From NCBI RefSeq assembly GCF_041146795.1, contig NC_135175.1, forward strand, positions 27,063,075 to 27,127,074: a stretch of 64,000 bases of DNA, read 5' to 3'. Shown in pieces: positions 4,501-48,400 of the stretch (position 1 is the first letter of the stretch; each line of letters starts with the position of its first letter). The notes below the pieces were generated by a model, which did no database searches, was not told the DNA's origin, and worked only from the letters and a program-made list of their open reading frames with translations. The stretch is from Maylandia zebra. Taxonomy: Eukaryota; Chordata; Actinopteri; Cichliformes; Cichlidae. Position numbers and translations under genes: made by a program.

Positions 4501-5529
4501 TAAACCTCCTTACAATATGCCTAGGAACACGAATATAATAACCCCAAAATGCTGGGTCATAGACAATTACAGCTGCCAGTCTTTTAGGGTATGGCTCTAC
4601 CAGCTTTGCACATCTAGAGACTGAAATCCTTGCCCATTCTTCTTTGTAAAACAGCTCCAGCTCAGTCAGGCTAGATGGACAGCGTTTGTGAACAGCAGTT
4701 TTCAGATCTTGCCACAGATTCTCGATTGGATGTAGAATTTGATTGGGCCATTCTAACACATGGATACGTTTTGTTTTATACCATTCCATTGTTGCCCTGC
4801 CTTTATGTTTAGGGTCGTTGTCCTGCTGGAAGGTGAAGCTCCGCCCCAGTCTCAAGTCTTTTGCAGACTCCAAGAGGTTTTCTTCCAAGATTGCCCTGTA
4901 TTTGGCTCCATCCATCTTCCCATCAACTCTGACCAGCTTCCCTGTCCCTGCTGAAGAGAAGCACCCCCAGAGCATGATGCTGCCACCACCATATTTGACA
5001 GTGGGGATGGTGTGTTCAGAGTGATGTGCAGTGTTAGTTTTCCGCCACACATAGCGTTTTGCATTTTGGTCTCATTTGACCAGAGCACCTTCTTCCACAT
5101 GTTTGCTGTGTCCCCGACATGGCTTGTGGCAAACTGCAAACGGGACTTCTTATGGTTTTCTGTTAACAATGGCTTTCTTCTTGCCACTCTTCCATAAAGG
5201 CCAACTTTGTGCAGTGCACGACTAATAGTTGTTCTATGGACAGATTCCCCCACCTCAGCTGTAGATTGCTGCATTTCGTCCAGAGTCAACATGGGCCTCT
5301 TGGCTGCATTTCTGATCAGCGCTCTCCTTGTTCAGCCTGTGAGTTTAGGTGGACGGCCTTGTCTTGGTAGGTTTACAGTTGTGCCATACTCCTTCCATTT
5401 CTGAATGATCGCTTGAACAGTGCTTCGTGGGATGTTCAAGGCTTGGGAAATCTTTTTGTAGCCTAAGCCTGCTTTAAATTTCTCAATAACTTTATCCCTG
5501 ACCTGTCTGGTGTGTTCTTTGGACTTCAT
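4475..5529 (-). pseudogene. Tc1-like transposase, frameshifted remnant
   Basis: Three overlapping minus-strand frames together give a Tc1 transposase. The N-terminal Psq/HTH part begins MKSKEHTRQVRDKVIEKFKA at 5529. The middle (5292-4852) has the paired-like DNA-binding and first DDE segments. The C-terminal part (5050-4475) keeps FQQDNDPKHKGRA and PIENLWQDLK. At least two frameshifts lie near 5300 and 5040. The usual SPDLNPIEN motif reads QILHPIEN, so a conserved Asp is lost. Clear terminal inverted repeats are not visible on both sides. This is a dead copy, clearly different from the intact Tc1 element at 46809-48414. Confidence 0.9.
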
Positions 5530-6799: not shown

Positions 6800-8359
6800 C
6801 AGGGAGTGCAGAATTATTAGGCAAATGAGTATTTTGTCCACATCATCCTCTTCATGCATGTTGTCTTACTCCAAGCTGTATAGGCTCGAAAGCCTACTAC
6901 CAATTAAGCATATTAGATGATGTGCATCTCTGTAATGAGAAGGGGTGTGGTCTAATGACATCAACACCCTATATCAGGTGTGCATAATTATTAGGCAACG
7001 TCCTTTCCTTTGGAAAAATGGGTCAAAAGAAGGACTTGACAGGTTCAGAAAAGTCGAAAACAGTGAGCTATCTTGCAGAGGGATGCAGCAGTCTCAAAAT
7101 TGCAAAGCTTCTGAACCGTGATCATCGAACAATCAAGCATTTCATTCAAAATAGTCAACAGCGTCGCAAGAAGCATGTGGAAAAACCAAGGTGCAAAATA
7201 ACTGCCCATGAACTGAGAAAAGTCAAGCGTGCAGCTGCCAACATGCCACTTGCCACCAGTTTGGCCATATTTCAGAGCTGCAACATCACTGGAGTGCCCA
7301 AAAGCACAAGGTGTGCAATACTCAGAGACATGGCCAAGGTAAGAAAGGCTGAAAGACGACCACCACTGAACAAGACACACAAGCTGAAACGTCAAGACTG
7401 GGCCAAGAAATATCTCAAGACTGATTTTTCTAAGGTTTTATGGACTGATGAAATGAGAGTGAGTCTTGATGGGCCAGATGGATGGGCCCGTGGCTGGATT
7501 GGTAAAGGGCAGAGAGCTCCAGTCCGACTCAGACGCCAGCAAGGTGGAGGTGGAGTACTGGTTTGGGCTGGTATCATCAAAGATGAGCTTGTGGGGCCTT
7601 TTCGGGTTGAGGATGGAGTCAAGCTCAACTCCCAGTCCTACTGCCAGTTTCTGGAAGACACCTTCTTCAAGCAGTGGTACAGGAAGAAGTCTGCATCCTT
7701 CAAGAAAAACATGATTTTCATGCAGGACAATGCTCCATCACACGCATCCAAGTACTCCACAGCGTGGCTGGCAAGAAAGGGTATAAAAGAAGAAAAACTA
7801 ATGACATGGCCACCTTGTTCACCTGATCTGAACCCCATTGAGAACCTGTGGTCCATCATCAAATGTGAGATTTACAAGGAGGGAAAACAGTACACCTCTC
7901 TGAACAGTGTCTGGGAGGCTGTGGTGGCTGCTGCACGCAATGTTGATGGTGAACAGATCAAAACACTGACAGAATCCATGGATGACAGGCTTTTGAGTGT
8001 CCTTGCAAAGAAAGGTGGCTATATTGGTCACTGATTTGTTTTTGTTTTGTTTTTGAATGTCAGAAATGTATATTTGTGAATGTGGAGATGTTATATTGGT
8101 GTCACTGGTAAACATAAATAATTGAAATGGGTATATATTTGTTTTTTGTTAAGCCTAATAATTATGCACAGTAATAGTCACCTGCACACACAGATATCCC
8201 CCTAAAATAGCTAAAACTAAAAACAAACTAAAAACTACTTCCAAAAACATTCAGCTTTGATATTAATGAGTTTTTTGGGTTCATTGAGAACATGGTTGTT
8301 GTTCAATAATAAAATTATTCCTCAAAAATACAACTTGCCTAATAATTCTGCACTCCCTG
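6800..8359 (+). mobile_element. Complete mariner-type (DD37E) transposon
   Basis: The element is 1560 bp, flanked by TA on both sides (6798-6799 and 8360-8361). The inverted ends begin CAGGGAGTGCAGAATTATTA and match for about 25 bp. It holds one uninterrupted transposase gene. It has inserted into the C-terminal coding part of a minus-strand LINE, whose frame continues on both sides. Intact ends plus an intact ORF suggest a fairly young, possibly mobilisable copy. Confidence 0.93.
7018..8034 (+). CDS. Mariner/Tc1-superfamily transposase, intact, DD37E
   Basis: A 338-residue transposase would cut and paste its own element in the nucleus. Residues 1-110 form the helix-turn-helix DNA-binding part, including a SSLKIAKLLNRDHRTIKHFI helix pair. 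The catalytic core has the first Asp in VLWTDEMRVSL (about 143), the second Asp in FMQDNAPSHAS, and Glu in [11 protein letters not shown] count 37 residues between the second Asp and the Glu, unlike the 34 of Tc1 and mariner. The start is the first Met after the 5' inverted-repeat region, at codon 1 of an open frame of ordinary length for the superfamily. No stop or frameshift is present. DD37E families are known in vertebrates (for example Traveler); membership is inferred. Confidence 0.93.
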   Translation: MGQKKDLTGSEKSKTVSYLAEGCSSLKIAKLLNRDHRTIKHFIQNSQQRRKKHVEKPRCKITAHELRKVKRAAANMPLATSLAIFQSCNITGVPKSTRCAILRDMAKVRKAERRPPLNKTHKLKRQDWAKKYLKTDFSKVLWTDEMRVSLDGPDGWARGWIGKGQRAPVRLRRQQGGGGVLVWAGIIKDELVGPFRVEDGVKLNSQSYCQFLEDTFFKQWYRKKSASFKKNMIFMQDNAPSHASKYSTAWLARKGIKEEKLMTWPPCSPDLNPIENLWSIIKCEIYKEGKQYTSLNSVWEAVVAAARNVDGEQIKTLTESMDDRLLSVLAKKGGYIGH

Positions 8360-21147: not shown

Positions 21148-21593
21148 CTCGGAGACAAAACATTAACTTAAACGACGGCTTTATTTGCTGGAGAGTCACC
21201 TTTGGACGATGCATAAACAACAACTTAAACTAACTAGACAGGAGATGCTGAAGGAAGACGACCATGGATACACACACAACAAACGTGGAGGACGCAACAA
21301 CTGGCAGGGAAAAACACAGGGCTTAAATACATACTGAGGTGATTAGGGAATGTGAAACAGGAGGAGAGCACAGCTGGGACTCATCAGACATGACAAGACA
21401 AGGGGAGGCAAAACTCAACACATTGACATAGTACACAGACTTTCAAAGTAAAACAGGAAACTGAACAGACGTGGACTAAACTAGGGGATACAGTGACAGA
21501 AATCAAACCCAAGAGAATCAAAACACATCATGAAAACAAAGATAACTAATACAAACAGAAAAACACTGAGTCCACAGACTCAGGACCGTGACA
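21148..21593 (-). repeat. 3' LTR
   Basis: A 446-bp copy equal in length and apparently nearly identical to 34347-34792. It supplies the last 16 codons and stop of the internal ORF. Confidence 0.9.
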
Positions 21594-21830
21594 GTACCCC
21601 CCCTCAAAGGGCTGGCTCCCGACAGCCCCAAACAAAAAAAAAGGCACAAAGCACCAGGCCAGGGTGGGCGGAGGGGGCCCAGGAAGGAGGGACAGAGACC
21701 AAACAAAAAACAAGGAGCACAAGAGACCAGAACAAACCAAAAACAGGTCAACACAAAACAAGACTATCCACGAGTCCATAGCAAAGTCCGGGAGTCGACA
21801 ACACAAGAGCCGAAACAGTTCAGGGGGCCG

Positions 21831-22025
21831 ACCATGCACACAGCAACGGCGGCGACGGGCAAACAGTTCCGGAGGCCGACCGTGCACACGGCAACGGCAG
21901 CGACGGGCAAACAGTTCAGGGGGCCGACCATGCACACAGCAACGGCGGCGACGGGCAAACAGTTCCGGAGGCCGACCGTGCACACGGCAACGGCAGCGAC
22001 GGGCAAACAGTTCTGGAGGCCGACC
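21831..22025. repeat. 45-bp tandem repeat in the LTR-element ORF
   Basis: The unit around GGCCGACCATGCACACAGCA occurs about four times, alternating between two variants. It encodes the RPPELFARR-type peptide repeats. Confidence 0.9.
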
Positions 22026-22476
22026 ACTCGGAAGGCAGTGGTGGCCACTGAGCAGGTCCGGAGGGCGGCCGCGATGCCAGCGGTGGCGACGAACTCCTTC
22101 CAGAGGCCATCCCCGAAGGCCATGATGCCAACTTAGCGGCCTGGAAAACGGCTGGCAGAGGCGAGGCGGAACAGGTCGAGCTGGCACCGACGGCGGCGTG
22201 GCAACCACAGGACCAGACGAGGCAGGACCAGACGAGGCAGGACCAGGCGAAGATGATGAGGATGCGGAGGCCGGACCAGGCGAAGATGATGAGGATGCGG
22301 AGGCCGGACCAGGCGTGGATGACGGCAGCGGGACGGCTGCGGAACCTGACGGCAGCGGGACGGCTGCGGAACCTGACGGCAGCGGGATGGCTGCAGGAGG
22401 TGATGTGGAGATGTGCTGGCTGGGTCCTCCAGGACCCTCAGCTAACGAGGCGTGGGGCTGGGTGGGCTCCTCGGAC

Positions 22477-22622
22477 CCTCCAGCAGACGTGGCATGAGGC
22501 CGGACGGGCTCCTCGGGCCCTCCAGCAGACGTGGCATGAGGCCGGGCGGGCTCCCCGGGCCCTCCAGCAGACGTGGCATGAGGCCGGGCGGGCTCCTCGG
22601 GCCCTCCAGCAGCCGACACTTG
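22477..22622. repeat. 51-bp tandem repeat in the LTR-element ORF
   Basis: CCTCCAGCAGACGTGGCATG recurs every 51 bp about three to four times, encoding the Gly/Pro-rich peptide repeats. Confidence 0.9.
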
Positions 22623-24476
22623 AGGCTGGCTGGGTTCTCCTAAACCCCCAGCAGACGAGGCAGGACGCTGGTTGGGTTCACCTGAACCCCCAGCTAACAT
22701 GACGTGAGACTGGACGGTCGACTGAAACAGAAGTTGTAGTGGTGGTCGCAATGAAGGTCGTGCTGGGTGTAGTGATGGTTGTTGAACATGCAACAGAGCG
22801 GGTAACAGACTCTCAGCAACTCCTCTCCGGGGAACAGGGACGGGTACTGGGCCTGGTCGAACCTCAGCCACCGCCACCTGAAGAACAGATACAGGGCCAG
22901 GGAAGAGCTGTGTTCTGGCAGCCGTACCCCTGGGGGCCGGTGTGGGTGCAGCAGCTAGCTGGACCGTCGCTGCTCCCACCCGAGGAGCTGAAACGGGTGC
23001 AGGAGTCAGCGGGGTCTCAGTTGCCCCCACCCAGGGAACCAGAACAGGCACAGGCAATGACCAGGCGCCCACCATCCCCGCCCGTGGAGCAGATACAGGT
23101 GCAGGGATGAACGGAGCCATAGTCTGCCTGGGAACTGGAACCGGACGCGGAGAGCAGAGCAGAGGAGCTGTAACAGTCACTGGGAAAACCAGGTTTATGG
23201 CACCAGACATGGTTCTAGAAAACCGAGACTTACGGCAGGCTGACCTTGGTAAAACCGCTATTCTTAAGTTGTCCAGGTTGACGTTAGCAGTCTTAGAAAA
23301 AACGAGTTCAGGGGCAGTCACAGGTGCTGGAGGAATTATACAAGCGGTATCTGAAGAAACTGGGTGTGAAGCAACATAAAACACAGTCTTACAAAACGCA
23401 GCCTGGGAAGTTGCACACACAGTGTCCAGGGCTACTGGCTGAAAAGCACGGCGCACAGAGTCATACAAACATGATCGTGGATCCGAAACTTCTGCAGTGT
23501 TCAAACCAAGTATTTTTGCCAGCTTGGTAACAGCAGATGACACCTGGTTGGTCTTAACCTGGACAGTCACAGGACGTATAGTCTGGAAGAGTTCACAATG
23601 AGCAACACAAACAGTCTTTGAATAAGCAGACTCTAGGCTTGTGAAATTTAACTCGGGGGAGGTTATGGAAACATGAGGTTTATCATAGGAAGCCTCAGAA
23701 TGAACTGGCTGGTGAGCCGCGTAAACCATGGGTGAAGCAACACCAACAACAGCCTCATGAGGTCTAGCCTGCACAGCATAGATGGAATGTGGCTAGGAAA
23801 TTGAACTGTCCCTGTTTAGTTTAGCGGTAAGAGAAATAGTCTTTTGAGCTGCATCTTTAATGTCCCGAGTGAGATCATGATTGTCCAAGTCAGAAAATTT
23901 CATAACAGATTCACATATATAATCTACATCTGGAAACTCACTATTAACTGATCCAAAAACAGATGGCTCGGAATCAACATAACCTGCCTGAGAAGCGAAA
24001 ACAGAAACCCCAGTCTTTTCAGAATGAAACCCAGAAACACCACTCTCAGTTACAGGACAAAAAATCTCTTTTGACTCTGAAATAAGGTCATCTGATTCCT
24101 GAATATTCTCAAACTTGGAAGAAACAAAAGAGGGAAGATTAGAATGCTCAGAGTCCCGAAAGACAGCCTCAGAGTCAGCCACCTTGGGATCATCAGTTTC
24201 TGTCTTTGCAGGCCCTGAGTTACCAGTCAAAAAGTTAACCGACTTCGAATTCGCTGGCTCAGAGCGGGAAATTCCCAGCGTGGAAGAAGCCGGGTGACAA
24301 CTGTTCTGTTCACTCACCACGTCCAGCAGTTCAGAACTGGACTCGGGTTGCGGTGAGGGACGGCGACGACGAGAACACCGCTTTCTCTTAGAAACCGGAG
24401 CGACAGAAAAAACGGAGGGTGTCGGAGCAACAGTGACTGGTCCCTCATCCTCCGACCACATTCCTGCCAGGCATGA

Positions 24477-24482
24477 GGCAGG
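24477..24482. repeat. Target-site duplication, left copy
   Basis: GGCAGG directly before the transposon. The same six bases follow it at 33885-33890. Confidence 0.92.
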
Positions 24483-25290
24483 TACGGTGGCTGGGAAGTG
24501 CAAAGCGCAACAAATTAAAAAACGGCAACAAATTTAAAATCCGCAACAAATTAAAAATCCACAACAAATTAAAACTCCACAACAAATGAAAAAACCGCAA
24601 CAAATTAAAAATCCACAACAAATTAAAAAACGCAACAAATTAAAAAACCGCAACAAATTAAAAAACCGCAACAAATTAAAAATCCACAACAAATTAAAAA
24701 ACCGCAACAAATTAAAAATCCACAACAAATTAAAAATCCACAACAAATTAAAAAACCGCAACAAATTAAAAATCCACAACAAATTAAAAAACCGCAACAA
24801 ATTAAAAATCCACAACAAATTAAAAAACCGCAACAAATTAAAAATCCACAACAAATTAAAAAAACGCAACAAATTAAAAATCCACAACAAATTAAAAAAC
24901 CGCAACAAATCAAAAATCCACAACAAATTAAAAAACCGCAACAAATCAAAAATCCACAACAAATTAAAAAACCGCAACAAATTAAAAATCCACAACAAAT
25001 TAAAAATCCTTGACGGAAAGGGATTGTCTGAAATACCGGAAGTGGCACAACGATTAGGCTTACTCCATATTTGTAGCTCAGAAAAGTGATTCGGGATGTC
25101 AACAAACGTTGAGAAACTCACGCCTCACAGCGCTTCCTTATCACCCTGACGGTGCTTGCTGCACTACATAGAGAACCGGAAAATGTTTTGCCCGTTTTGT
25201 GGCGTTAGCTTCAGCCTCTTCACCCCTTTTTGTGCTTCCTGTGGACGGTCTCTGGAGCTTTTGCGGGACACAGACCAGGCTGAAGGATCA
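24483..25290. repeat. Left terminal inverted repeat (808 bp)
   Basis: Inverse of 33004-33884. Identity ends abruptly after GGATCA, inside the coding exon. The length difference is due to the number of 18-bp units. Confidence 0.92.
24505..25008. repeat. Subterminal array of 18-bp units (left)
   Basis: About 28 tandem units of CAACAAATTAAAAA plus TCCA or ACCG, the two variants often alternating. Because 18 is a multiple of 3, the array creates spurious open frames on both strands. Likely role by analogy with other DNA transposons: multiple transposase binding sites (inference). Confidence 0.93.
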
Positions 25291-26234
25291 GACACCCTAC
25301 AGTACTGCATTAAATATTTCAACGAAGGTCACTCATATAGTGTTATCATGGACATGATGTTAAGTTTGCATGGTGTAAAGATAAGTTTAAGGAGTCTTAA
25401 AAGTAAACTTAATAATGCTGGACTTTACCGAAGAAAATATTTTCACTCCAGAACAACGATCATTAACGCAATCAGAGCGGAGCTTCAAGGACCTGGGCGA
25501 TTGTTTGGGTATCGAACAATGTGGCAGGTACTTAAACAAAAGCATCATCTTAAAGTGAAGAGGGATGATGTGATGAAAATACTCCGGGAGCTTAATCCTC
25601 ATGGATGCCAGATGAGAACACGCAGAAGATTCATTAGGAGAACCTATCATTCGCTGGGACCCAACTACATGTGGCATGCTGATGGTTATGACAAGCTCAA
25701 ACCATTCGGTTTGGCCATTTCAGGGTGCATTGATGGATTTTCACGCAAGGTTTTGTGGCTAGAATGTGGACCAACCAATAATAATCCAGTGGTTATAGCT
25801 TACTATTACTTGTCATGTGTTGGGAGCCTTGGTGTTGTACCGATGAGACTGAGAACTGACTGTGGGACAGAAAACGGCATTATGGCTGCAGTTCAGTGCG
25901 CACTACGTCACCATCATGATGACCACTTCAGCGGAGAGTCCAGTCACATGTTTGGTTCATCAACGAATAACCAGCGAATTGAGTCCTGGTGGTCCATATA
26001 TCGAAAAGGAAGGTAAATATAACATTTAATTTTGCCTGATATTTAAAGGCGTAACAAATTTGAATGTCGTGCAAAAGTTGATTTATTGTCAGTCTGCCCC
26101 AGGGCAGCTGTGGCTACAACTGTAGCTGCCTCCACCAGTGTGTGAATGTGAGAGTGAATGAACAGTGGAATTGTAAAGCGCTTTGAGGGCCTCGAAAAGC
26201 GCTATATAAATGCAATCCATTATTATTATTACTG

Positions 26235-26278
<44 letters not shown>

Positions 26279-27678
26279 TCAGTAATTCAACTTAAAAAGT
26301 AAAACCGATATTAAATACTCATTGTATGCCAAACTATACATTTTTAGCCCATTTAGTAATTATGATGATTATGCTTTGGAACTTAAGAAAAACCCAACTT
26401 CAAAACCATAATATTGTGAAAAGGTTAAATATTTTAGACTTAAAGTGCCACTCTACTATGAGCTAATTAATTCAAATCATCTGCAAAGGGTTCCTGAGCC
26501 TCTAAATGGTCTTTCTAATTCAGGAGGACTCACAGAATGGACATGACTGCTGTCCTGACAGCTGTGGGAAAAAAAACATAATTGACACCCTCCATAAAGA
26601 ACACCTTAAAAGAATTTGAATGTTCACAGAGACTATCAAAGCACATTAATAGAAAGTTTTGTCTAATGTAAGTGTGGATGAAAGGGGTGTAACATAGTGT
26701 AGTGGCTAAGACCTCAAGGCTGCTACTGAAGCATCCTGGTCTTCCATAACACCTCAACAGATCCACAGACTGATAGCATCCATACCACGCTGCATGGAGG
26801 CAGTAATTTATGCAAAAAGGACCCAAACAAATAGAACATACAAATTGTTAGAGACATTGAATTTGGGTTTTTCATAAGTTCTACGTCTTAATCATTAACA
26901 TTGTAAGAAATACTTGAAATACCTCACTTTGTATGTAATGACTCAGTATCGCTAATTTCACATTTAATTAGAATTCCTAAAATAAATTAACTTTTGCACA
27001 TTACTGAAATGTTTTAGAGTTTTGCCTGTATGCAATCCCTTTCGATAGAAAACATTTAAACTGACTGGAGTCTATATATGATTCAGTTAAAATGAACTGT
27101 AAAGTGCCATGCGATGACGTGTTGTGAAACGATGCCATGTAAACAAACTAAACTATCTCTAAACAATTTTTTTAGGGCTCAGTTTTGGTTGGAGCTGTTT
27201 GCGGATCTTCGAGATGCTGGACACTTCAATGGAAGTCACGAGCATCAGTGCCTTTTGAGATTTTGCTTCACTGTCATTGTTCAGAAGGATCTTGATGAAT
27301 GTGTGAAGCTGTGGAACACTCATCGGATTCGTCCCTCAAGAACAGCTTCATGTCCAGGAGGTGTGCCAAATGAACTGTACTACCTACCCCACAGGTAACG
27401 GATAATAATGATCAAATAATTACTTTATGTGTAAACCTATATTAATGCAATTGTCTTCCATTGATCACAGATACGGCTCCAGAGACTGTGGATTCCTGAT
27501 TCAACAATCTGAACTGGACGCTTTTCCTGAGTCTAGGCTGTCAGTAGTTGTATGTGGGGACTCAAACATACAGGAGTATCTGAATTTTGTAATGGAGCAA
27601 AATCATTTTCAAAAGCCCGTCTGCTGGGAGTCTGCCACTGAACTTTACATGAAGTTAATAGAAATTGCAAATTTCTAA
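25156..27678 (+). CDS. DDE transposase of the 9.4-kb element, three exons, 427 aa
   Basis: Exons 25156-26012, 27176-27394 and 27471-27678 join in phase across GT/AG introns and end in TAA. Residues 12-29 form a CxxC...CxxC zinc-ribbon-like module (C12, C15, C26, C29). Residues 50-165 look like helix-turn-helix DNA-binding parts (GHSYSVIMDMMLSLHGVKIS and the following basic region). The catalytic core has D176 in MWHADGYDKL, D235 in LRTDCGTENG and E276 in NQRIESWW, a DD40E spacing of the integrase (rve-like) type. Exon 2 starts at AQFWLELFADL. No stop or shift is seen, so it may be functional. Its first 45 residues equal those of the opposite gene because both start in the inverted repeats. 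Met1 or Met10 could be the true start. Confidence 0.88.
26094..26280. repeat. SINE fragment and TTA microsatellite in the transposase intron
   Basis: GGGCAGCTGTGGCTACAACT through AAAGCGCTATATAAATGCAA is a retroposon 3' fragment. It is followed by an imperfect (TTA)n run at about 26219-26280. Confidence 0.7.
26281..27175. other. Remaining intron 1 of the transposase gene
   Basis: Ordinary AT-rich intron sequence ending in a TTTTTTTAG acceptor; no other feature recognised. Confidence 0.5.
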
Positions 27679-28336
27679 AAAAAAACAAAAACCTGGCTTT
27701 TTGTTGTTTTCACCAAAACCTATAGCATATGCTGCTTTTTTGAACTAGGCTACATGAGTTGGCTGAAGACGCCAAAAGTTTAAGTTTGTGTTTGTAAAAG
27801 CATATTCTTACTGAATGTCTTGATAATTCTGGTCCTTGTTTAGCTGATGGAAGTTGAGATACAGTCCTGAACATTTATATAAATAATAAATCAAATCAAA
27901 ATCACATCTTGCACTGTATTGTGTGTTTATTACAACTTTTAAGAGTAGAACACAGTACACCTTTAAATGCCTTTACTTTTAGTAGCACTGTCAAAACTTT
28001 GAACAAATCAAGTCTAGCGATTGCATTTTAAATCTCCTTTGAACAGATGTACCTACATTTTAGAATAAAAAAAACATGCTCAAATACATAACAGATTTCT
28101 GGATAAGTCCCGTAGCAAAAAACCTACAGAATTTACAATGTAATGCCAAGAAGAAGCAGCTGTAAGTAACTGGGTTATCTAATAAAACTACAATAAACCT
28201 GGTAAACTATAATGGATTTGTGCTGTACCGCCAGTATGTCCCACCTTCTCCTATTCATAACATATTTAAAAAAAAATTTGACTTAAAAACTTGAGGAATA
28301 AATCAACAGCAGGTTTGAACTACAAGGCCAGACATT
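27679..28336. other. Space between the two convergent transposon genes
   Basis: 658 bp with polyadenylation-like AATAAATC near 27885 for the transposase and, on the other strand, AATAAAC-like signals near 27925. No ORF recognised. Confidence 0.5.
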
Positions 28337-31300
28337 CTAGAAACATCCAAATCCTGGGGAGTTTTGAATTCCAAAATCCATGTTGGATTTAAACAAGGAA
28401 TATGAAGTTATCATTGGTAGTTTCAATAAGTTTAAGCATGTATTTGCCATCGGGAATAAAGAGTCATCCAGGAACTGTAGGCTTGGTAGTGGATCTAATC
28501 CAGAAGGTGGCAGTGATGTTAGCCCAGTTGCAAACATCAGAACATCGCCCAACGACACAGCAGTTTGTGATTCTGCAAAAAATTTTAAAAAAAATTATAT
28601 ATGTATATGTGAATTCAACACATTGTCTTGTAATGAGTACTAAAAGAAATACTGGTATAAACCTTCACAGTCCAGCAGATAGTCTGACCAGTAGCCCACA
28701 GTTTGACTTTCCAGACGTCTCCTGTTACTTCCAGATGGGCTGAAGTCAGGTTTGAAAAGTCTCTCAAGTTCAAGGGCTGTGAGTTTCTTTTCCATGTGAC
28801 ACAGGACCGGGGAAAGCAAAGTAGGGTGTTGCTGGAGTGCACTCAGGAAATTAAGTGCTGAAAGACCCTCTTTAAATCTAAAGAATGAGGAGAACTTTGT
28901 GTCATTTACCAGTTCATAGTACATGCACAAACTATGGACAAACTGTGAACTTTGGAAACCTTGGAGAATGTAAAATATTTCAGTCGGAAACTATGAACAA
29001 CACTGTCATAACAATAATTCACCTGTCTCACCTGTCAATTACAGATGAGTTTCGAGCAATTATATACCACCGGAGATAGTCAGACACAATGTCTTTCTTT
29101 TCCTCAACTGTGGAAACATGCCTTAGACAACCAGCCACCTGTAGCATAGTACTGTGTTTTATGACACAGTCACGCAGGACATCCACTGAACCAGCACTGT
29201 CGATCTGAAAAACCCATAAAAATGGACATACACAATGTAAGCTTACGTGTCTGATTTTCATTCCTGTTTTTTCCCTACACAAAGAAAGAATTTTTTAATG
29301 TCATACAGATGAAGAAGCTGTAGTTCTATCCTGCATTCAAATCCTGCGCTGTCCTCACCTCTTGTAAAGCTTTCCCTATGTCGTCATCTGTGACTGAGGC
29401 AACTGTTGCTTTTACTGAAGTCTGGCCTGCAAGATAATGTACCAGCTCTTCTGACAGGAAATGGGGCCCTGGACCACCATGCACAACTGACACGGCTATC
29501 ATCTTTCCTGCTAGGTAGTATTCATCCTCCCTTACAGCTGTGAATGAATACAGTAAATGATAAACTCTCTCACACACACACCTCTCTCTACCGATCGATC
29601 AGATCCGATCGATGTCAGATAGATCGATCAGATAGACAGACTAATGCTGTTTTGAAATAATCCAAGAAATTATTATGAGTTGCTTCTGATAATAATTAAA
29701 AACAAATTGATTTAAAAGTCCAAAAAAGTCTTTAAATTAAGTTTATCAAACATCTGATCATTGCATACCCTTTGCATTGTAGACGAGGAATCGACGTCCT
29801 TTGGGTCCATCAAAAATGGGACGATCTTTCATGTGTTTCATTAGCAGACTCAAAAACTCTCGTTTTGGGCCACCTGCATCAAGTCCTTCTTCTAGAATGC
29901 CAGAATCATCAGTAAATTTAACCAGCATGTCATTGGTTTCAGAGTATGACAACCGCCTGAAACCCCTGACTGCTCCATCCCAGACATTTGCTCTTGAGAT
30001 GTTGAATCTGCTGACACTTCCATGATGAATAGCACTGGATAAGTTTGCAATGATGTCAGGTAGATTAATGTTAACGTCTTCCCTGTAATCACAAAAATGA
30101 AAGACCGAATGCAAGACTATACAATTTAGCATTGTTATTTGAAGTAGTATTTGATATTTTACAGTGCTCTGTCATCAATCGGTGAAGCAACTTCAACCAG
30201 CTCTTCATCCTCGTCCTCAATGCAGGGGGCACACAGGTCTGCATATTTACTGTTGAGAAATTATAATTCCAACATTAGAATAACTTCTATTCACCCTTTA
30301 ATTATCTTTACCCATTTCACAAACCCAAACGTGTACTGTAGTTACAGATTTAAAATTACATATAAGACACAATTTTATTTACCTATAGGGACTCATGACT
30401 GGATTCGTTTCGTTTTGGTGATCAAGATCCTCTGTATCAGATATTACAATCTGGAAAAAAAAGAACAAAAATTGCATACTGTATATAAACATACATAGCT
30501 TTGTACTATTTCAGCAATAGCAAAAAACGTCATGCTGACATAAATTGCCCAAATACCTGACATGGCTGTATGATAGATGAAGGTCCTGGAGCATGTCTGA
30601 AACAGAATAAGAGTATTGGAATTAAAATGTCCAGATAAGAAGCTCATACAGTTCAATATTATTTATGATACCAACATTATAAAAAGGCTATGAAACCAAT
30701 AAATATTTATATTAGGGTGGGGCAATAAAATAACAATATGTATTGCAGTATACTTTTCTCTCAAAGGAAATATGAGACTATTGCAATAGAGCTATCCATC
30801 CATCCATTTTATATGCTGCTTATTCCTCTAATCACTCTTTTTTTTCATTGACATAAGAATAGTCAATCCTTATCAAGTAGCGCAGCAACCAATCGCTCTG
30901 GGAACAGCATCATGTCCAGTTAGGGTGACTTGTTACCTGCAGCACAGTGAAGTAGCAGCGCCACCCGTGGAGATGTTTGGGCACCATTTACATCTAAACC
31001 AACCATTAAAATAAATATACAAGGAGAGATTAGGAGAATTTGCTTTTATTTCTTAGCTTATTCATTTGATATTGACAAAGACTTTGTCAATTTTATGTCT
31101 GTTCTCCTGTAAAACTTACTGTAAACTAAGATTTATGTTTAGAATCATTCTTTTTTGTTTTTAAATGTAATTGACCAAGCAATTGAGTGATCTGGTGTTT
31201 GTTGTCTTTTGAAACTGGAAATCTTTATCCCTGACTTTTGATTTAGTTTTTAACATGTACCTTTTTTTAGTTATCTGAAACGGATGTAATATGTTAATAC

Positions 31301-33138
31301 ATCCGTCTGTCTGAACTTATGACAGGAAATAAATATTTAAATCAAAACAAGCTTCTGAGGATTTCACATCTTACTTATGTGAAATTTTAAGTTCACCTTG
31401 TAATCGGAAGGTTGCCGGTTCGAGCCCCGGATCGGACAGTCTTGGTCGTTGTGCCCTTGGGCTAGACACTTCACCCATTGCCTACTGGTGGCGCCAGTGT
31501 TCGGCAGCCTCGCCTCTGTCAGTGCGCCCCACGGTGGCTGTGGCTACAATGTAGCTGCCATCACCAGTGTGTGAATGTGTGTGTGAATGGGTGGATGACT
31601 GGATGTGTAAAGCGCTTTGTCCTTAGGGACTAATAAAGCGCTTTACAAATACAGGCCATTTACCATTTACCATGAGCAACGGCACATTTAATATGTACAA
31701 ATCTAGCGGTTTATATCGTGATCAATATTCCCTGAAATAAAACAAAGACATATATTGTATTGCCCAACTCTAATATATAGCAGAACAAGCTCTTAAATAA
31801 CTTACTCCTTCTCTGCATGTTTACCATTAGGGGTACTCTGGTCTTGTGGTTTGAAAACCTAAGATGAAAAACATGCACTTTTCAAAGCTTTCACCAACTT
31901 CGTATCGCATTTAGATAGTCCATCAATACTTAAAAAAAAATACTTTTTTAAAGAACATATAATCACACAATGAAAATAATAGACCCATGGATGTTACAGA
32001 ATTATGATCATTATAGAGAAAAAAAATAGAGCACTCAGAGGACATGCACCTCTGCCAGGGCCACTCACAGGCCTCTGGCATGGTGGAGAGGGAAAAAAAG
32101 TACACACCAATGTGTCTGCCTGGTTGAACTCAGCTGTGCTTCTTGATGTAATCACAATCTCAGGGTCCGAGTCTGAGGTACCATCCTCTGCAATCAGAGC
32201 TGAGAAAGTAGACACATTATTAGTTGTTGTATATGTAAACACATCAAAATATAAAATTAACAAACCTCGTTTGAAGTGGCTCTCTGGGCAAATGAATAGA
32301 GAAATCCTGTTGTAGTTCTTTCCTATTTCCTCTTTGTAGTCTGCCAATCGGAATGGCCTTTCTGTCCCAGGCACATTTATCACCTCTGTGCAGTCAGGAT
32401 ACAAAAGGACATATGGTCCCTCCACCAAGTCCTTGTTGAATGTTCTCATTTTTTCTACAGCCTGCTTCAGGAGGTCAGGGGCTGTAATTTCGGGGGTAAT
32501 AAATAAGGGCAGTGTTTTCCCTCTTAGCGGTTTTAAGTCGGTTTGTTGTGACACCATAAATCCGATATTGATCTACAAACAAATAATAAAAGCCAGATCA
32601 CTTTAAGAATAATTGCCAAATCCTCGTTTATAAAGTTACCTGTGATGGCTTACCTTGACAGGTTTACTCTGTAACTTGAGTTTTAATTTTGCTCCACAGC
32701 TGAAGGCCTGACGCTCTTTGGATTTTGATTTTTTGTACTCCATGAACTGCTTGTATGACGGACATGTTTGTTCTGGTTGAATGAAAAACGTTTGACATCA
32801 AAACGGGGTTAGCACTCTCCATTACTAAACGTAGACGAGAATACAGTATAAGGAAACAGAAACAGAAACCGGAGCCAAAATGGTAAATAAACGTGCTATT
32901 TAACTGAAATAGCATAGACTGTCTGAAGAGAACAAAAAGTGAGTAATATATCAAAATTACTTTGTTCAGAATTTTCTGTTTGTTTTGATGTCCCCGGGGA
33001 GTTTGATCCTTCAGCCTGGTCTGTGTCCCGCAAAAGCTCCAGAGACCGTCCACAGGAAGCACAAAAAGGGGTGAAGAGGCTGAAGCTAACGCCACAAAAC
33101 GGGCAAAACATTTTCCGGTTCTCTATGTAGTGCAGCAA
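28337..33138 (-). CDS. HECT-type E3 ubiquitin ligase carried by the transposon
   Basis: Minus-strand multi-exon gene. Exon 1 (33138-32961) has the zinc-ribbon module shared with the transposase. Exons near 32772-32654 and 32572-32266 have [13 protein letters not shown] and [20 protein letters not shown]. Small acidic/Ser-rich linker exons follow at about 32199-32108, 31860-31806, 30596-30558, 30450-30384 and 30252-30164. HECT exons lie at about 30082-29769 ([18 protein letters not shown]), 29540-29359 ([19 protein letters not shown]), 29205-29030, 28882-28668 and 28560-28337. The last contains [16 protein letters not shown], matching the HECT catalytic-cysteine motif, and ends GFGCF. All inspected junctions carry GT/AG. 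HECT ligases pass ubiquitin from their Cys to substrates. Fish genomes hold many predicted G2/M phase-specific E3-ligase-like proteins of this sort. A role in the transposon's life is inference. Confidence 0.82.
30713..31772. mobile_element. Non-autonomous element in an intron of the HECT gene
   Basis: The left end TAGGGTGGGGCAATA and right end TATTGCCCAACTCTA are inverted matches. Flanks give no clean 8-bp duplication. It contains the SINE at 31389-31675. Confidence 0.55.
31389..31675 (+). mobile_element. tRNA-derived SINE
   Basis: CACCTTGTAATCGGAAGGTT is followed by the B box GGTTCGAGCCCC. The body then runs to AAAGCGCTTTACAAATACAG and a GGCCATTTACCATTTACC tail. The same family as 52357-52667 (opposite strand) but 5'-truncated, lacking the A box. 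Confidence 0.85.
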
Positions 33139-33884
33139 GCACCGTCAGGGTGATAAGGAAGCGCTGTGAGGCGTGAGTTTCTCAACGTTTGTTGACATCC
33201 CGAATCACTTTTCTGAGCTACAAATATGGAGTAAGCCTAATCGTTGTGCCACTTCCGGTATTTCAGACAATCCCTTTCCGTCAAGGATTTTTAATTTGTT
33301 GTGGATTTTTAATTTGTTGCGGTTTTTTAATTTGTTGTGGATTTTTAATTTGTTGCGGTTTTTTAATTTGTTGTGGATTTTTAATTTGTTGCGGTTTTTT
33401 AATTTGTTGTGGATTTTTGATTTGTTGCGGTTTTTTAATTTGTTGTGGATTTTTGATTTGTTGCGGTTTTTTAATTTGTTGTGGATTTTTAATTTGTTGC
33501 GGTTTTTTAATTTGTTGTGGATTTTTAATTTGTTGTGGATTTTTAATTTGTTGTGGCTTTTTAATTTGTTGCGGTTTTTTAATTTGTTGTGGATTTTTAA
33601 TTTGTTGCGGTTTTTTAATTTGTTGTGGATTTTTAATTTGTTGTGGATTTTTAATTTGTTGTGGATTTTTAATTTGTTGCGGTTTTTTAATTTGTTGTGG
33701 ATTTTTAATTTGTTGTGGATTTTTAATTTGTTGTGGCTTTTTAATTTGTTGCGGTTTTTTAATTTGTTGCGGTTTTTTAATTTGTTGCGTTTTTTTAATT
33801 TGTTGTGGATTTTTAATTTGTTGCGGTTTTTTCATTTGTTGCTGTTTTTTAATTTGTTGCGCTTTGCACTTCCCAGCCACCGTA
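33004..33884. repeat. Right terminal inverted repeat (881 bp)
   Basis: Inverse of 24483-25290 with a longer 18-bp array. It includes the first 45 codons of the HECT gene and its upstream leader. Confidence 0.92.
33289..33862. repeat. Subterminal array of 18-bp units (right)
   Basis: About 32 tandem units of TTTAATTTGTTG with GTGGAT or GCGGTT spacers, the inverse of the left array. The order of variants differs from the left, so the arrays have diverged in copy number. Confidence 0.93.
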
Positions 33885-34280
33885 GGCAGGTGAGGGGTGG
33901 TCGGAACCAGACGTGAGGGAGGAAGGAGTCCGATGCTGCGACTTCAGCTGCTGCAGAGGGGCTTTAGAATGCTCCGCCCGCTGCGGCGGCATGAGAAGGC
34001 TTGCTCGCTGTGACTGAGGCAGTGTGGATGAGGAGATGAGGGTGAATTGGGCCAGCTCCCGGGCTTTGACTGCCTCCTTAGCCTGGGTCAGCGAACGGCT
34101 GAACTCCGAGGCAATAGACAGCTTGCGCAGTTGAGGATTTCTGTCAAATATGGTTTGTATTGCATTCAGCCCGACTGAGAACGTCTGCAAATCTGAGGCG
34201 TGGCTAATGCGAGTCATCAGTCCGAGGATGCGAGCAAGGTCCACCTCTCTCTCGAGGTGAGCTGAGTCCGCTGGGTCCAT
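33885..34280 (-). pseudogene. N-terminal part of the LTR-element ORF (gag-like)
   Basis: The minus-strand frame starts MDPADSAHLEREVDLARIL just after the 5' LTR leader and runs into the transposon insertion at 33885. The same phase is found again after 24476. The helical, charged sequence resembles the start of gag-type proteins of fish LTR elements. No protease or RT motif. It is broken by the 9.4-kb insertion. Confidence 0.65.
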
Positions 34281-34346
34281 GTTATGGTTGCGTCCTTCTG
34301 TCACGATGAGTTGTGTGGCTGTCAGTGGCTGGACCCACGTGCAGGA

Positions 34347-34792
34347 CTCGGAGACAAAACATTAACTTAAACGACGGCTTTATTTGCTGGAGAGTCACCT
34401 TTGGACGATGCATAAACAACAACTTAAACTAACTAGACAGGAGATGCTGAAGGAAGACGACCATGGATACACACACAACAAACGTGGAGGACGCAACAAC
34501 TGGCAGGGAAAAACACAGGGCTTAAATACATACTGAGGTGATTAGGGAATGTGAAACAGGAGGAGAGCACAGCTGGGACTCATCAGACATGACAAGACAA
34601 GGGGAGGCAAAACTCAACACATTGACATAGTACACAGACTTTCAAAGTAAAACAGGAAACTGAACAGACGTGGACTAAACTAGGGGATACAGTGACAGAA
34701 ATCAAACCCAAGAGAATCAAAACACATCATGAAAACAAAGATAACTAATACAAACAGAAAAACACTGAGTCCACAGACTCAGGACCGTGACA
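34347..34792 (-). repeat. 5' LTR
   Basis: 446 bp, matching 21148-21593. On the minus strand it begins TGTCACGGTCCTGAG and ends CTCCGAG, with an AATAAAGCCG polyadenylation-type signal close to the end. Confidence 0.9.
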
Positions 34793-41980: not shown

Positions 41981-44900
41981 GTGAGGACACTAGGAAGTTT
42001 CTGTCTGTCTGTTATTATTTTACTACCTAATTTGATTGTTGTACGTCACATGGTGTATAGTCAGATCCAGAAGTATTTAGACATGGACATTTTTGTGTTT
42101 TTGCATCTGTGCACCACCATGGTGGATTTGAAATCAGTCAAGATTATGAAAGTGCAGACTTTCAGCTTTGATTAAAGGGGTTTGACAAAAGTATTAGATG
42201 AATTGTTTAGGAACTGCAGTCATTTTCAGAGGCTCAAAAGTAATTTAAAGGGTTGTTACAAAAAATTTGATAGTTGTCCACTGGAACACCCAAAAGATTT
42301 GTTCCTGAGGTGAAGGAGGTATTGCTAGGCTTAATCTAGTAGATTCTTAAAACAGGGGCGATTCTAGGATCAAAGCTTTGGGAGTGCTGAGCACCCAGAG
42401 AGCTGCCCAGCCAGGCAAGATAAACCTGTCTCTGTCAGTCCCTGCATCCTTAAATGTTGTTCCGAGTTCTCCGTGACTGTCACTTTGGTGCATTTAAACC
42501 CCTGTTCCTCCCCGTCCTCGTCGTCTGTTGTCTTCGTCTCCGTTATCAGTCATCATAATTTTATCATCTCTGTCCAAGTCTGCAAATTTCTTTATTAAAT
42601 CATAAGCTTCTTAAATTCATCAAGTCTTTCTGTGCCTGGGTCCTCGTCACAAAACACGACATAAGATAAGATAAGATAACCTTTATTAGTCCCACACGTG
42701 GGAAATTTGTTTTGTCACAGCAGGAAGTGGACAGTGCAAAAGTTATGACGCAAAAATTAGAATACAATAAGAATAAATACAGTACACAGCTGTACAGAAT
42801 AGAATAAAATAATATACTATATACAGTAGAATAAAATAGAATAAAAATATACAATAAGATAAAAATAGAATACGAATGCTATATACAACTGAGTAAAAAT
42901 ACAACGATGCCAGAAAAGATTATTGCACTTAGTGTTATTGCACATGTGTGGATGTGTGTGTTTGTTCAGTTAAAGTCTTTGTTGTGGAGTCTGACAGCAG
43001 TGGGGAGGAAAGACCTGCGAAATCTCTCCGTCCCACACCGTGGGTGCCGCAGTCTCCCACTGAAGGAGCTGCTCAGTGCTGTCACAGTCTGCTGCATGGG
43101 GTGGGAGACGTTGTCCAACAGGGATGACAGCTTAGCCGCCATTCTCCTGTCACTCACCACCTCCACTGGGTCCAGAGGGCATCCTAGAACAGAGCTGGCC
43201 CTTCGGATCACCCTGTTCAGTCTCTTCCTGTCCCCAGCAGAGATGCTGCCGCCCCAGCAGACCACACCATAAAAGATAGCAGAAGCCACCACAGAGTCAT
43301 AGAAGGTCTTCAGGAGTGGGCCCTCCACTCCAAACGACCTGAGTCTCCGCAGCAGGTACAACCTGCTCTGCCCTTTCCTGTAGAGGGCGTCTGAGTTATG
43401 AGTCCAGTCCAGTCTGTTGTTCAGATGAACACCAAGGTACCTGTAGCTGTCCACAGCCTCAATGTCCATACCCTGGATGTTCAGTGGTTGCAGTGGAGAA
43501 TGCTTGTGCCTGCGGAAGTCTACCACCAGCTCCTTGGTTTTACTGGCGTTGATCTGGAGGTAGTTCAGCTGGCACCAGTCCACAAAGTCTTGAGTCAGTC
43601 CTCTGTACTCCTTGTCGTCCCCATCAGTGATGAGGCCGACTATTACAGAGTCATCAGAGAACTTCTGCAGGAAGCACTGGGTGGAATTGTGGGAGAAGTC
43701 TGCAGTGTAGATGGTGAAGAGGAACGGAGCCAGAACCGTTCCCTGTGGGGCCCCCGTACTGCAGACGACCCTGTCCGACACACAGCCCTGAGTCCTCACA
43801 TACTGTGGTCGGTCGGTGAGGTAGTCCAAAATCCAGGTAGTGAGGTGATGGTCCACTCCAGATTTCTCCAGCTTGTCCTTCAGAACCGAGGGAAGAATAG
43901 TGTTGAAGGCACTGGAGAAATCAAAGAACATGATTCTCACAGTGCTTCCAGCGGACATCATCGTTTTGTACATTTTAACACAATTTAATCCCCACATTTG
44001 TGAAAGAAAAGCAAAACACTTTTTTGAAAAGTCTGTAACAAAACCATCAAATCTGATCAAGGTTATTTAAATGCTGCCAAAGAAGAATGGATTGGAATAG
44101 AAAAAGTACATATCCTAACCTTAATTACTACGGGAGAATAATGAATGATGCTCATAGTGAGTAAAAAGTAAACTGAGTACATTTTTTGGACAGAGAGTCA
44201 CTTTTAACATGTATGTATAATATAATACAGATACATAAAAAACACTCCCAAAACAGAATAAATTATTACAAATAAATTATTACAAAATATTAATAAAAAT
44301 TATAAAAATGGAGGCAACTTTGCCTGTGGTAGAATGTATACCATGCATGAAAAAATCTTTACTGCAGATACTAATTTTACTAATTTAATAATAATAATTT
44401 TGTGTTGTAAGATTTATGACTTTCATGCTTTCATAGTGGTACTTAGGAGAGCTTGACATTTTTATCAGGTGGTACACACTGTAAAAAGTTTGAGAAACAC
44501 TGATAAGTTAAGTGTATGTGTGCTTTTGGAAAACATTTGAAGCTGCAGTACAGAATCTTTGAAACAAGCAAGCTTAAAACATCTTTAGAATATGAACAGA
44601 GCACTCTTCTTCTCTTTACAGCTCCTCACTCCACCAGGACACTGATTGGCACTTTCTGATAGTGTGCAAATGTGATGTACGTACTGCGGCAGTCATGCAG
44701 ACAACTGGACGGTCCAAAAGTTGGCCTACCTATTACTGGCTGAGGTTTTAGTAGAGTTGTGCCTGAACCACATAAAAATATATCATTAATTTTAATCTCC
44801 CCAATCAATGATAATGTTATGTTGGAATGTTGTTAAAGAGGGTCAAAAATGTTTCAACCCAGTTTGTTTTGCAGATTCTGTATAGCAGCTTTAATATAGG

Positions 44901-45400: not shown

Positions 45401-48400
45401 CACAACAGGAGTTATAAGGTTAATGGGCATTCAGTAAGTTAGCTAGTTAGTATCCATTTCAAACAGGACAGTGGTAACAACAGCAGGCTACGGACAATTC
45501 TAAGTTTTAGATTTTAAAGAGGCTGTATACATTTCAATGGGAGCAACAGGACGGTCAACACTGCAGGTTACCTGGTGTAATGTTTTTCAGCTAAAAAGAA
45601 ACATGGTCTGACTCCTACCTAACTATATAAAGAGTAACTGAAGGTTAAATGCAGCCAACATGTCCTGTTTTAAGCCAGGCACTTGCACCTCCACTCCGCT
45701 GCGTCTCAGCCAACATCGCTCTGGCAGCAAGAGCGCTAGAGCCAGAGTAGGGGAGAGGCGAGCTGGAACAAACCATTTTGGGAGGGGGGGTTATCTATAC
45801 TTTTGTTGTTAAAATGTTACGTCTCAAACAAGTACAGTACTGTATGCTTTTTATATTTTTAGTAGTGTGTCACACAAACAGCAAATATTGTCAAAAAAAG
45901 TAAGAAATCTTTGGGGGTGCTTTGATTCATTTTGGGGGTGCTGAAGCACCCCCAAAAATGGGCTAAAATCGCCCCTGTCTTAAAAAGACACAAATGGTGG
46001 TATACAGAGGCAAAAACTGTACCATTCCCCAAACAGTACATTAAGAACAGTGAAAAATCTTTCACTATAGTTACATAAAATTTAAAAAGTGTTTTATATG
46101 TATCTTCTCCCAAAAACAGGAGAGGGGCTTGACAATTTCTGGAAGGTTCTGGTGAACGGGAGAAACTGCTCTGTGCCAATTCCCAAAGAGAGATTTGACT
46201 TAAGCAGCTGGTATGATCCTGATGACAACAAGCCGGGTAAATCCCGCACAGCCAAGGCTGCTCTCATTGACGGGTATGGCCCCTTATCTCGTTTAGATCT
46301 GCTTATCTGTTTCACAAATGTGCGCCTATCAATACAGTCATATAAACTTTTGTTTGGCAATTTCACACAATGAAGTGTTGATTAATGAAATCACACTGCT
46401 GCTCCTGATTTGTATTAAAACAGAGACGTACTATTTTGACGCTTTTCCAAAGACGGTTTCGTTTTTTCCCCCTTTTGAAAATAAAACAAGTGTTCCAAAC
46501 ACTGGACTACTCAAATATGGCCTCTTAACATGATAAACCTCCATCAGTTAGCACAATGTTCCATGGAAATGAGTCTCTTTACATATGTCTAGATGTCCTA
46601 TTAATACTCGTGAAATAATTTATGATGCATGGTTCAATTTAATCCATTAACTGTCACTGAAGGTTTTTCTTATCAAGTCCATGTTATATTAGATAACAAC
46701 AACCCTGCTTTATCTTCAAACATAGGGCCATTTCAGAGTGACTACAAAAATTATGAAAAGCAGTTCATTTCTTAACTTTAGGCTTTAACTTTAGATTACT
46801 TTAACCTACAGTGGGGCAAAAAAGTATTTAGTCAGCCACCGATTGTGCAAGTTCCCCCACCTAAAATGATGACAGAGGTCAGTAATTTGCACCAGAGGTA
46901 CACTTCAACTGTGAGAGACAGAATGTGGAAAAAAAAAATCCATGAATCCACATGGTAGGATTTGTAAAGAATTTATTTGTAAATCAGGGTGGAAAATAAG
47001 TATTTGGTCAATAACAAAAATACAACTCAATACTTTGTAACATAACCTTTGTTGGCAATAACAGAGGTCAAACGTTTACTATAGGTCTTTACCAGGTTTG
47101 CACACACAGTAGCTGGTATTTTGGCCCATTCCTCCATGCAGATCTTCTCGAGAGCAGTGATGTTTTGGGGCTGTCGCCGAGCAACACGGACTTTCAACTC
47201 CCGCCACAGATTTTCTATGGGGTTGAGGTCTGGAGACTGGCTAGGCCACTCCAGGACTTTCAAATGCTTCTTACGGAGCCACTCCTTTGTTGCCCGGGCG
47301 GTGTGTTTTGGATCATTGTCATGTTGGAAGACCCAGCCTCGTTTCATCTTCAAAGTTCTCACTGATGGAAGGAGGTTTTGGCTCAAAATCTCACGATACA
47401 TGGCCCCATTCATTCTGTCCTTAACACGGATCAGTCGTCCTGTCCCCTTGGCAGAAAAACAGCCCCATAGCATGATGTTTCCACCCCCATGCTTCACAGT
47501 AGGTATGGTGTTCTTGGGATGCAACTCAGTATTCTTCTTCCTCCAAACACGACGAGTTGAGTTTATGCCAAAAAGTTCTACTTTGGTTTCATCTGACCAC
47601 ATGACATTCTCCCAATCCTCTGCTGTATCATCCATGTGCTCTCTGGCAAACTTCAGACGGGCCTGGACATGCACTGGCTTCAGCAGCGGGACACGTCTGG
47701 TACTGCGGGATTTGATTCCCTGCCGTTGTAGTGTGTTACTGATGGTGACCTTTGTTACTTTGGTCCCAGCTCTCTGCAGGTCATTCACCAGGTCCCCCCG
47801 TGTGGTTCTGGGATCTTTGCTCACCGTTCTCATGATCATTTTGACCCCATGGGATGAGATCTTGCGTGGAGCCCCAGATCGAGGGAGATTATCAGTGGTC
47901 TTGTATGTCTCCCATTTTCTGATGATTGCTCCCACAGTTGATTTTTTCACACCAAGCTGCTTGCCTATTGTAGATTCACTCTTCCCAGTCTGGTGCAGGT
48001 CTACAATACTTTTCCTGGTGTCCTTCGAAAGCTCTTTGGTCTTGGCCATGGCGGAGTTTGGAGTCTGACTGTTTGAGGCTGTGGACAGGTGTCTTTGATA
48101 CAGATGATGAGTTCAAACAGGTGCCATTCATACAGGTAACGAGTGGGGGACAGAAAAGCTTCTTACAGAAGACGTTACAGGTCTGTGAGAGCCAGAGATT
48201 TTCCTTGTTTGAGGTGACCAAATACTTATTTTCCACCCTAATTTACGAATAAATTCTTTACAAATCCTACCATGTGGATTCATGGAATTTTTTTTCACAT
48301 TCTGTCTCTCACAGTTGAAGTGTACCTCTGGTGCAAATTACTGACCTCTGTCATCATTTTAAGTGGGGGAACTTGCACAATCGGTGGCTGACTAAATACT

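Follow-up and report, generated by a model that had tools for sequence, protein, structure and literature searches.

DNA transposons of the IS3EU/GingerRoot type, a superfamily in Repbase, are defined by TA..TA termini, a 6-bp target-site duplication and an integrase-like DDE transposase, with TAYGG..CCRTA ends in the fungal members; fungal elements bearing a TET gene also carry an alpha-kinase gene opposite to the transposase, with the TET/JBP gene between the two (accessible portions of PMC10045372 and PMC12730594). Here we describe an element of this type from the cichlid Maylandia zebra, located at positions 24483–33884 of a stretch of 64,000 nucleotides (the window; RefSeq assembly GCF_041146795.1, contig NC_135175.1, 27,063,075–27,127,074, forward strand). 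Its ends, TACGG..CCGTA, fit the fungal consensus, whereas its second gene is a HECT ubiquitin ligase and its inverted repeats exceed 800 bp and contain both coding starts. Shared N-termini of this kind are not described for the fungal elements in the accessible portions of those two reports.

The nearest arrangement known to us is that of maize MuDR, in which spliced transposase and accessory genes converge and the promoters and transcription starts lie in or just inside the terminal repeats; in the fish element, the convergent genes are read from the sequence. MuDR differs in its transposase family, its repeats of about 215 bp and its accessory gene mudrB, of unknown function, and the accessible portion of PMC3440606 mentions no shared coding module. 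A likeness of another kind is to ICP0 of herpes simplex virus 1 (HSV-1), a parasite-borne ligase with SUMO-interacting sequences, of which SLS-4, reported to be functional, has the core IVISDS, close to IVISDT in the fish ligase (PMC3174244, in part). ICP0 is, however, a RING ligase with activity established by experiment, whereas the fish protein is of the HECT type and the comparison from its side is motif-based.

The window ligase belongs to the fish proteins annotated as 'G2/M phase-specific E3 ubiquitin-protein ligase-like', a group named as host genes yet at least in part transposon-borne. No publication combining IS3EU and HECT was found in a search that left Repbase and the subscription literature outside, so that a database-only description is possible, and no title or abstract found describes a HECT-bearing transposon of such a type. 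Publications found to combine IS3EU with ubiquitin are unrelated, and none was found that links 'phase-specific E3 ubiquitin-protein ligase' genes with transposable elements; the literature found on the expansion of these genes in fish does not concern transposons. HECT is not mentioned in the main text of PMC4255032 or in the accessible portion of PMC9587614, and PMC6434244, as far as accessible, is a carp ovary gene list.

Element boundaries and inverted repeats

The element is 9,402 bp long, with TACGG at its start and CCGTA at its end, and an initial annotation, made from the sequence alone, had placed it correctly to the single base. Abutting both termini is the duplication GGCAGG, also reported there; by chance, six matching bases at precisely this position would be expected about once in 4,096 cases. 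Its assignment to the IS3EU type holds in all three respects, namely TA..TA termini, a 6-bp duplication (in one insertion) and an integrase-like DDE transposase. The parts of its ends are as follows.

24477–24482, unstranded: left copy of the target-site duplication GGCAGG, by direct reading
24483–25290, plus strand: left terminal inverted repeat, 808 bp, beginning TACGGTGGCTGGGAAGTGCAAAG
24506–25009, plus strand: left subterminal array, about 28 copies of an 18-bp unit (CGCAACAAATTAAAAATC)
25010–25182, plus strand: left leader and putative promoter, same as the right leader
25183–25290, plus strand: shared 36-codon module, transposase copy (CxxC..CxxC)
33004–33884, minus strand: right terminal inverted repeat, 881 bp, terminating CACTTCCCAGCCACCGTA
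33004–33111, minus strand: shared 36-codon module, HECT copy
33112–33284, minus strand: right leader and putative promoter, same as the left leader
33285–33865, minus strand: matching array of the right end, about 32 copies
33885–33890, unstranded: right copy of the target-site duplication GGCAGG

Read inwards from its tip, each arm consists of about 23 bp of terminal sequence, the array of 18-bp units, a leader of 173 bp and a coding stretch of 108 bp. The array, a minisatellite making up about 500–580 bp of each arm and a detail beyond the initial annotation, differs in copy number between the ends, so that the whole arms need gaps to align; over an ungapped stretch of 786 nucleotides they are 90% complementary, and their innermost 343 bp (24948–25290 and 33346–33004) are identical. 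At 25035 in the left leader, with a mirror copy in the right arm, lies ACCGGAAGTG, which we take to be an ETS-type factor motif.

The identical inner part of the repeats reaches 36 codons into exon 1 of each gene and ends there, so that the transposase and the ligase begin alike, with a zinc-ribbon-like segment. A common N-terminal CxxC..CxxC module and a shared leader with probable promoter had both been proposed; the two genes do start inside identical repeat sequence, and the leader is identical over 173 bp. Counted from the ATG, the shared codons number 36 and not the 45 given earlier, and it is these 36 codons of each gene, not the whole of exon 1, that lie inside the repeats.

When the element and one GGCAGG are removed in silico, the flanks fuse into a minus-strand open frame of 386 amino acids (aa) with the junction inside it, which indicates a clean insertion into a pre-existing frame.

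Two convergent genes

Inside the element lie the two convergent spliced genes that had been predicted, a transposase on the plus strand and a HECT ligase on the minus strand, with GT..AG introns throughout and 16 exons. Both modelled frames are free of stops and frameshifts, and both genes, including the transposon's own ligase, are apparently intact. Splice sites are assigned from GT/AG dinucleotides, uninterrupted frames and consistency with homologues annotated in fishes.

25183–26012, plus strand: transposase exon 1, holding catalytic D167, D226 and E267
27176–27394, plus strand: transposase exon 2
27471–27678, plus strand: transposase exon 3, with stop
27885–27890, plus strand: first AATAAA-type signal past the transposase gene
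27926–27931, minus strand: sole AATAAA-type signal on the HECT strand between the two stop codons
32961–33111, minus strand: HECT exon 1, its first 108 bp within the repeat
32654–32772, minus strand: HECT exon 2
32266–32572, minus strand: HECT exon 3, modelled in a relative as a mixed alpha/beta domain
32108–32199, minus strand: HECT exon 4 (SDSDPEIVI)
31806–31858, minus strand: HECT exon 5
30557–30596, minus strand: HECT exon 6
30383–30450, minus strand: HECT exon 7, opening with the SUMO-interaction-like IVISDTED
30163–30249, minus strand: HECT exon 8
29769–30082, minus strand: HECT exon 9, where the HECT N-lobe begins
29359–29537, minus strand: HECT exon 10
29032–29204, minus strand: HECT exon 11
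28663–28877, minus strand: HECT exon 12
28337–28572, minus strand: HECT exon 13, with catalytic Cys645 (NTCLN) and stop

Owing to the proximity of the two AATAAA-type signals, at 27885 and 27926 between the stop codons, the transcripts probably end tail to tail.

Composed of 418 aa in three exons, the transposase has an integrase core (Pfam PF24764, E = 5.7e-29) and a weak match to HTH_21 that falls under the cut-off of that family. The catalytic D, D and E (D165, D224 and E265 in relative P0121) are kept in all 48 aligned transposases. The structural model, taken from the 97%-identical P0121 (mean predicted local distance difference test score, pLDDT, of 85.4), matches the folds of MuA, TnsB, IstA and retroviral integrases (best E = 6.8e-7), with TM-scores that are low for the whole model (0.16–0.35) and reach 0.71 for targets comprising the catalytic core only.

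The ligase (677 aa, 13 exons, running from 33111 down to 28337) is by sequence and by fold a member of the HECT family, with predicted activity. Its HECT domain is complete (PF00632, E = 1.2e-16, profile positions 22–304 of 306), and the catalytic Cys645 of the C-lobe is conserved in 43 of 46 relatives, the remaining three being gapped there. The model of relative P0006 (mean pLDDT of 74.4) can be aligned with experimentally determined HECT structures across some 400 columns (best E = 3.6e-15; target-normalised TM-scores mostly 0.4–0.67 among the matches listed). The part preceding the HECT domain consists of the module, a domain of mixed alpha/beta type (residues 88–188 of the model) and a low-confidence linker (196–308).

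Concerted evolution of the shared module

The relatives listed are the best 120 of 190 HECT matches and the best 120 of 691 transposase matches, mostly from ray-finned fishes. Among the listed proteins with the start of the body reached, the module is found in at least 43 of 87 HECT proteins and at least 41 of 97 transposases; another N-terminus is present in 13 HECT proteins, four of which have the module with one Cys replaced, and in 11 transposases. Residues 1–45 of the Archocentrus transposase, searched against 5.8 billion proteins, gave 11 candidates, all of which passed: two transposases (the query itself plus one further entry from Archocentrus) and nine proteins with HECT bodies. Next to the query, the highest-ranking match is that species' own HECT protein (95% identical, E = 8.7e-20).

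Within the close subfamily (HECT at least 64% and transposase at least 73% identical to the window's proteins), six pairs have both N-termini annotated, from the same species or from sister species or genera; two of them cross sister taxa, namely Polypterus/Erpetoichthys and Takifugu flavidus/rubripes. Module identity is 0.857 within pairs (minimum 0.72, in loach), as against 0.548 among the transposases and 0.537 among the ligases of different fishes. Each module is most similar to that of its own partner in six of six pairs, and of the 720 possible assignments none but the observed one scores as high. Judged from these sequences, the module evolves in concert in the close subfamily, to which the claim is limited. 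Residues preceding the module match within pairs as well in Archocentrus (MDSSRV) and Takifugu (MDD.QV); the remaining four pairs have no such residues. Although its start is missing, the HECT model of Takifugu flavidus retains TEEPAVPGTS, which also occurs in the transposase on a contig of equal size.

For a wider comparison, 44 HECT and 41 transposase N-termini were picked by hand for their Cys pattern from both lists plus the window, leaving out a duplicate isoform (P0177) and broken, misplaced or truncated patterns (for example, P0046, P0047, P0049, P0117, P0128, P0129 and P0133). Gly follows both Cys pairs in 44 of 44 HECT modules and Pro is present in 90%, from ropefish to cichlids; the Cys pattern was the rule of selection, and Gly and Pro were not selected for.

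A different start is seen in transposase relatives P0233, P0237, P0232 and P0222 (the last from the brachiopod Lingula), where a hydrophobic, signal-peptide-like sequence replaces the zinc ribbon (P0233 and P0237, and also P0219, by a hydropathy cut; P0222 and P0232 by eye); the N-terminal module of the transposase family is possibly exchangeable. Two further relatives in Sarotherodon galilaeus bear source names that are probably misannotations of transposon genes, P0122 that of 'gamma-butyrobetaine dioxygenase' and P0192 that of 'solute carrier family 15, member 5'.

Pairing of the two genes in other fishes

Contigs of equal size in both lists, compared by eye, served to pair the genes. A transposase and a HECT protein share such a contig in Archocentrus (consecutive LOC115776738/9), Notolabrus (consecutive LOC117828943/4), Crenichthys (consecutive tags CRENBAI_024063/4), Takifugu flavidus (31 kb) and Brachyhypopomus (463 kb); contig sizes are equal in Oreochromis aureus and Dissostichus mawsoni too, but these are chromosome-sized and carry little weight. 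This protein-level evidence, together with the matching species-specific N-termini, speaks in favour of the HECT gene belonging to the element.

Maylandia zebra itself has three 548-aa database proteins and one shorter protein that are 99–100% identical to the HECT body (best local alignment, 55–60% of the query), which may represent further copies, allelic variants or separate assemblies; in the three of 548 aa the gene model begins past exon 1. At the DNA level, viral contigs with transposase and HECT alignments and prokaryote contigs with a transposase alignment gave no confirmed match.

SUMO-interaction-like motifs in the ligase linker

Two SUMO-motif patterns occur in 33 of 47 HECT linkers, as against a mean of 3.8 and a maximum of 10 in 500 rounds of shuffling that take no account of relatedness; in 12 representatives below 60% identity the count is nine (shuffles, mean 0.9 and maximum 5). 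The motifs occupy two different places in the linker in different subfamilies. Besides them, the linker has conserved SDSDSEIVI and ADT(L/V) stretches. Of the other patterns tried, a loose one was not enriched (12 of 29 linkers versus 9.1 in shuffles) and was dropped, as were two that were weakly enriched (4 and 8 of 29 versus 1.0 each). The enrichment is a lead rather than proof, and lends some support to the earlier suggestion that host factors may be targets of the ligase.

Surroundings of the element

Downstream of the interrupted 386-aa frame (21546–24482 and 33891–34361) is a 748-aa frame with minisatellite repeats. Neither this frame nor the two parts of the interrupted one gave a match in a Pfam search, and together they are possibly another mobile element. 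Two related stretches resembling short interspersed nuclear elements, with outer limits set by eye, lie in introns of the transposase gene (26087–26280) and the HECT gene (31380–31670), with 90% and 85% identity over pieces of 40 and 33 nucleotides; the second contains GGTTCGAGCCCC, presumably a tRNA-type B box. Other mobile elements in the window are represented by Tc1/Sleeping Beauty-like transposase frames and reverse-transcriptase frames at 6988–8034, 47027–48112, 4475–5071, 42966–44066 and 57672–59507, the transposase frame at 4475 scoring below the Pfam cut-off.

Proposed mechanism and its alternatives

In the explanation that we favour, to which as a whole we give a probability of roughly 0.45, an autonomous IS3EU-type element inserted recently and would make two proteins together from the identical promoters of its identical ends. 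The architecture itself we regard as nearly certain. The ends, leaders and first codons being all identical, one sequence is able to serve both genes as binding site, promoter and protein module. The module would lead transposase and ligase to one shared site, be it the transposon ends, where the 18-bp arrays would be its natural binding sites, or a common partner; for such shared targeting we see about even odds. Given the shared arrangement of ends, leader and module, the ligase is most likely an accessory acting where the transposase acts, and it probably works for the element. There it would attach ubiquitin to host factors of silencing or repair, or to the transposase complex, thereby removing a hindrance to transposition. 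The SUMO-interaction-like motifs in the flexible linker could let it recognise SUMO-marked proteins at that place, although we regard this part as doubtful. More speculative still, by analogy, is the full parallel with ICP0, in which a vertebrate transposon would encode a SUMO-targeted ligase, aimed by a zinc ribbon, that strips SUMO-dependent silencing and repair factors from its own ends, with concerted evolution keeping the targets matched.

Several observations weigh against this explanation. Across the 41 transposase modules, the best HECT module comes from the own genus (Polypteridae merged) in only 5 of 20 testable cases, albeit against a permutation mean of 0.59 over the 41 (P = 0.00035), and an own-genus rule for all subfamilies was dropped at this count. 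The 15 misses comprise 11 in a subfamily 49–55% identical, whose partners may be unlisted or whose module sharing may be lost, and four in the close subfamily: Misgurnus, Metynnis, Brachyhypopomus and Paramormyrops. Misgurnus, the loach, finds its best match in Leuciscus and its own partner second, and matches in the six-pair test, where fewer rivals were offered; for the other three, same-genus HECT modules came only from other subfamilies. The lists of relatives hold 120 of the 190 HECT and 120 of the 691 transposase matches, annotation is too short to judge the module in 31 of 87 HECT proteins and 45 of 97 transposases, and the module-only search was specific but, with 11 candidates in all, not exhaustive. 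In the transposase model the module is poorly resolved (block means of 55–71). As for the SUMO-like motifs, 14 of 47 linkers have neither pattern, the window linker lacks pattern A and has only the IVISD-type, the shuffles treat related linkers as separate, and the two patterns, in our own wording, are the two that did best when five were tried on an earlier selection (29 of 47 linkers).

Gene conversion alone is able to yield concerted evolution, and the module could thus be a by-product: the repeats would have grown inward as a promoter for the second gene, conversion would keep the arms identical and the zinc ribbon would matter to the transposase only. The identical tract, which runs unbroken from the array via the leader into coding sequence as a conversion tract would, is consistent with this, as is the lower likeness of the module than of the bodies between fishes (0.55 and 0.54 versus 0.81 and 0.72). 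The Gly and Pro residues beside the Cys pairs, retained in HECT modules from ropefish to cichlids, argue otherwise, and we consider a by-product unlikely. Slightly less probable in our estimate is that the ligase targets the transposase itself, either as self-control of copy number or by dismantling the strand-transfer complex after integration. A common module offers the simplest means of bringing ligase and transposase together on one set of DNA ends, and the transposase model resembles MuA, whose complex needs a host unfoldase for disassembly; the SUMO-like motifs point to other targets, though a SUMO-marked transposase would fit both explanations.

That the HECT gene is a host-type passenger, picked up accidentally and irrelevant to transposition, would agree with fish annotation, where such proteins appear as ordinary 'G2/M phase-specific E3 ligase-like' genes, but we hold it to be quite improbable. 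Against it stand the pairs on equal-sized contigs with their matching N-termini, the conserved catalytic residues and the company that the HECT gene keeps with the transposase across medaka, loach, cichlids and pufferfish, and in polypterids via two sister genera. The body identities of the two proteins also covary (r = 0.71, 15 comparisons), which host kinship alone could explain. Hardly credible is an artefact of assembly or gene modelling that fused unrelated sequences: the window is a single sequence, but the exact duplication, the restored reading frame and 16 exons free of stops all oppose it, and the same pairing is implied independently in other species.

Implications

A terminal inverted repeat normally supplies binding sites and at most a promoter. 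In the repeat described here there is, in addition, coding sequence for a module that two proteins with no other relationship have in common, and its two copies are kept alike; a selfish element could in this simple way have its helper protein follow the transposase. At least part of the fish 'G2/M phase-specific E3 ligase-like' genes are transposon-borne, which affects gene counts and studies of gene families. If it is true that the ligase removes SUMO-marked host factors, the element would be a vertebrate transposon with its own counter-defence enzyme.

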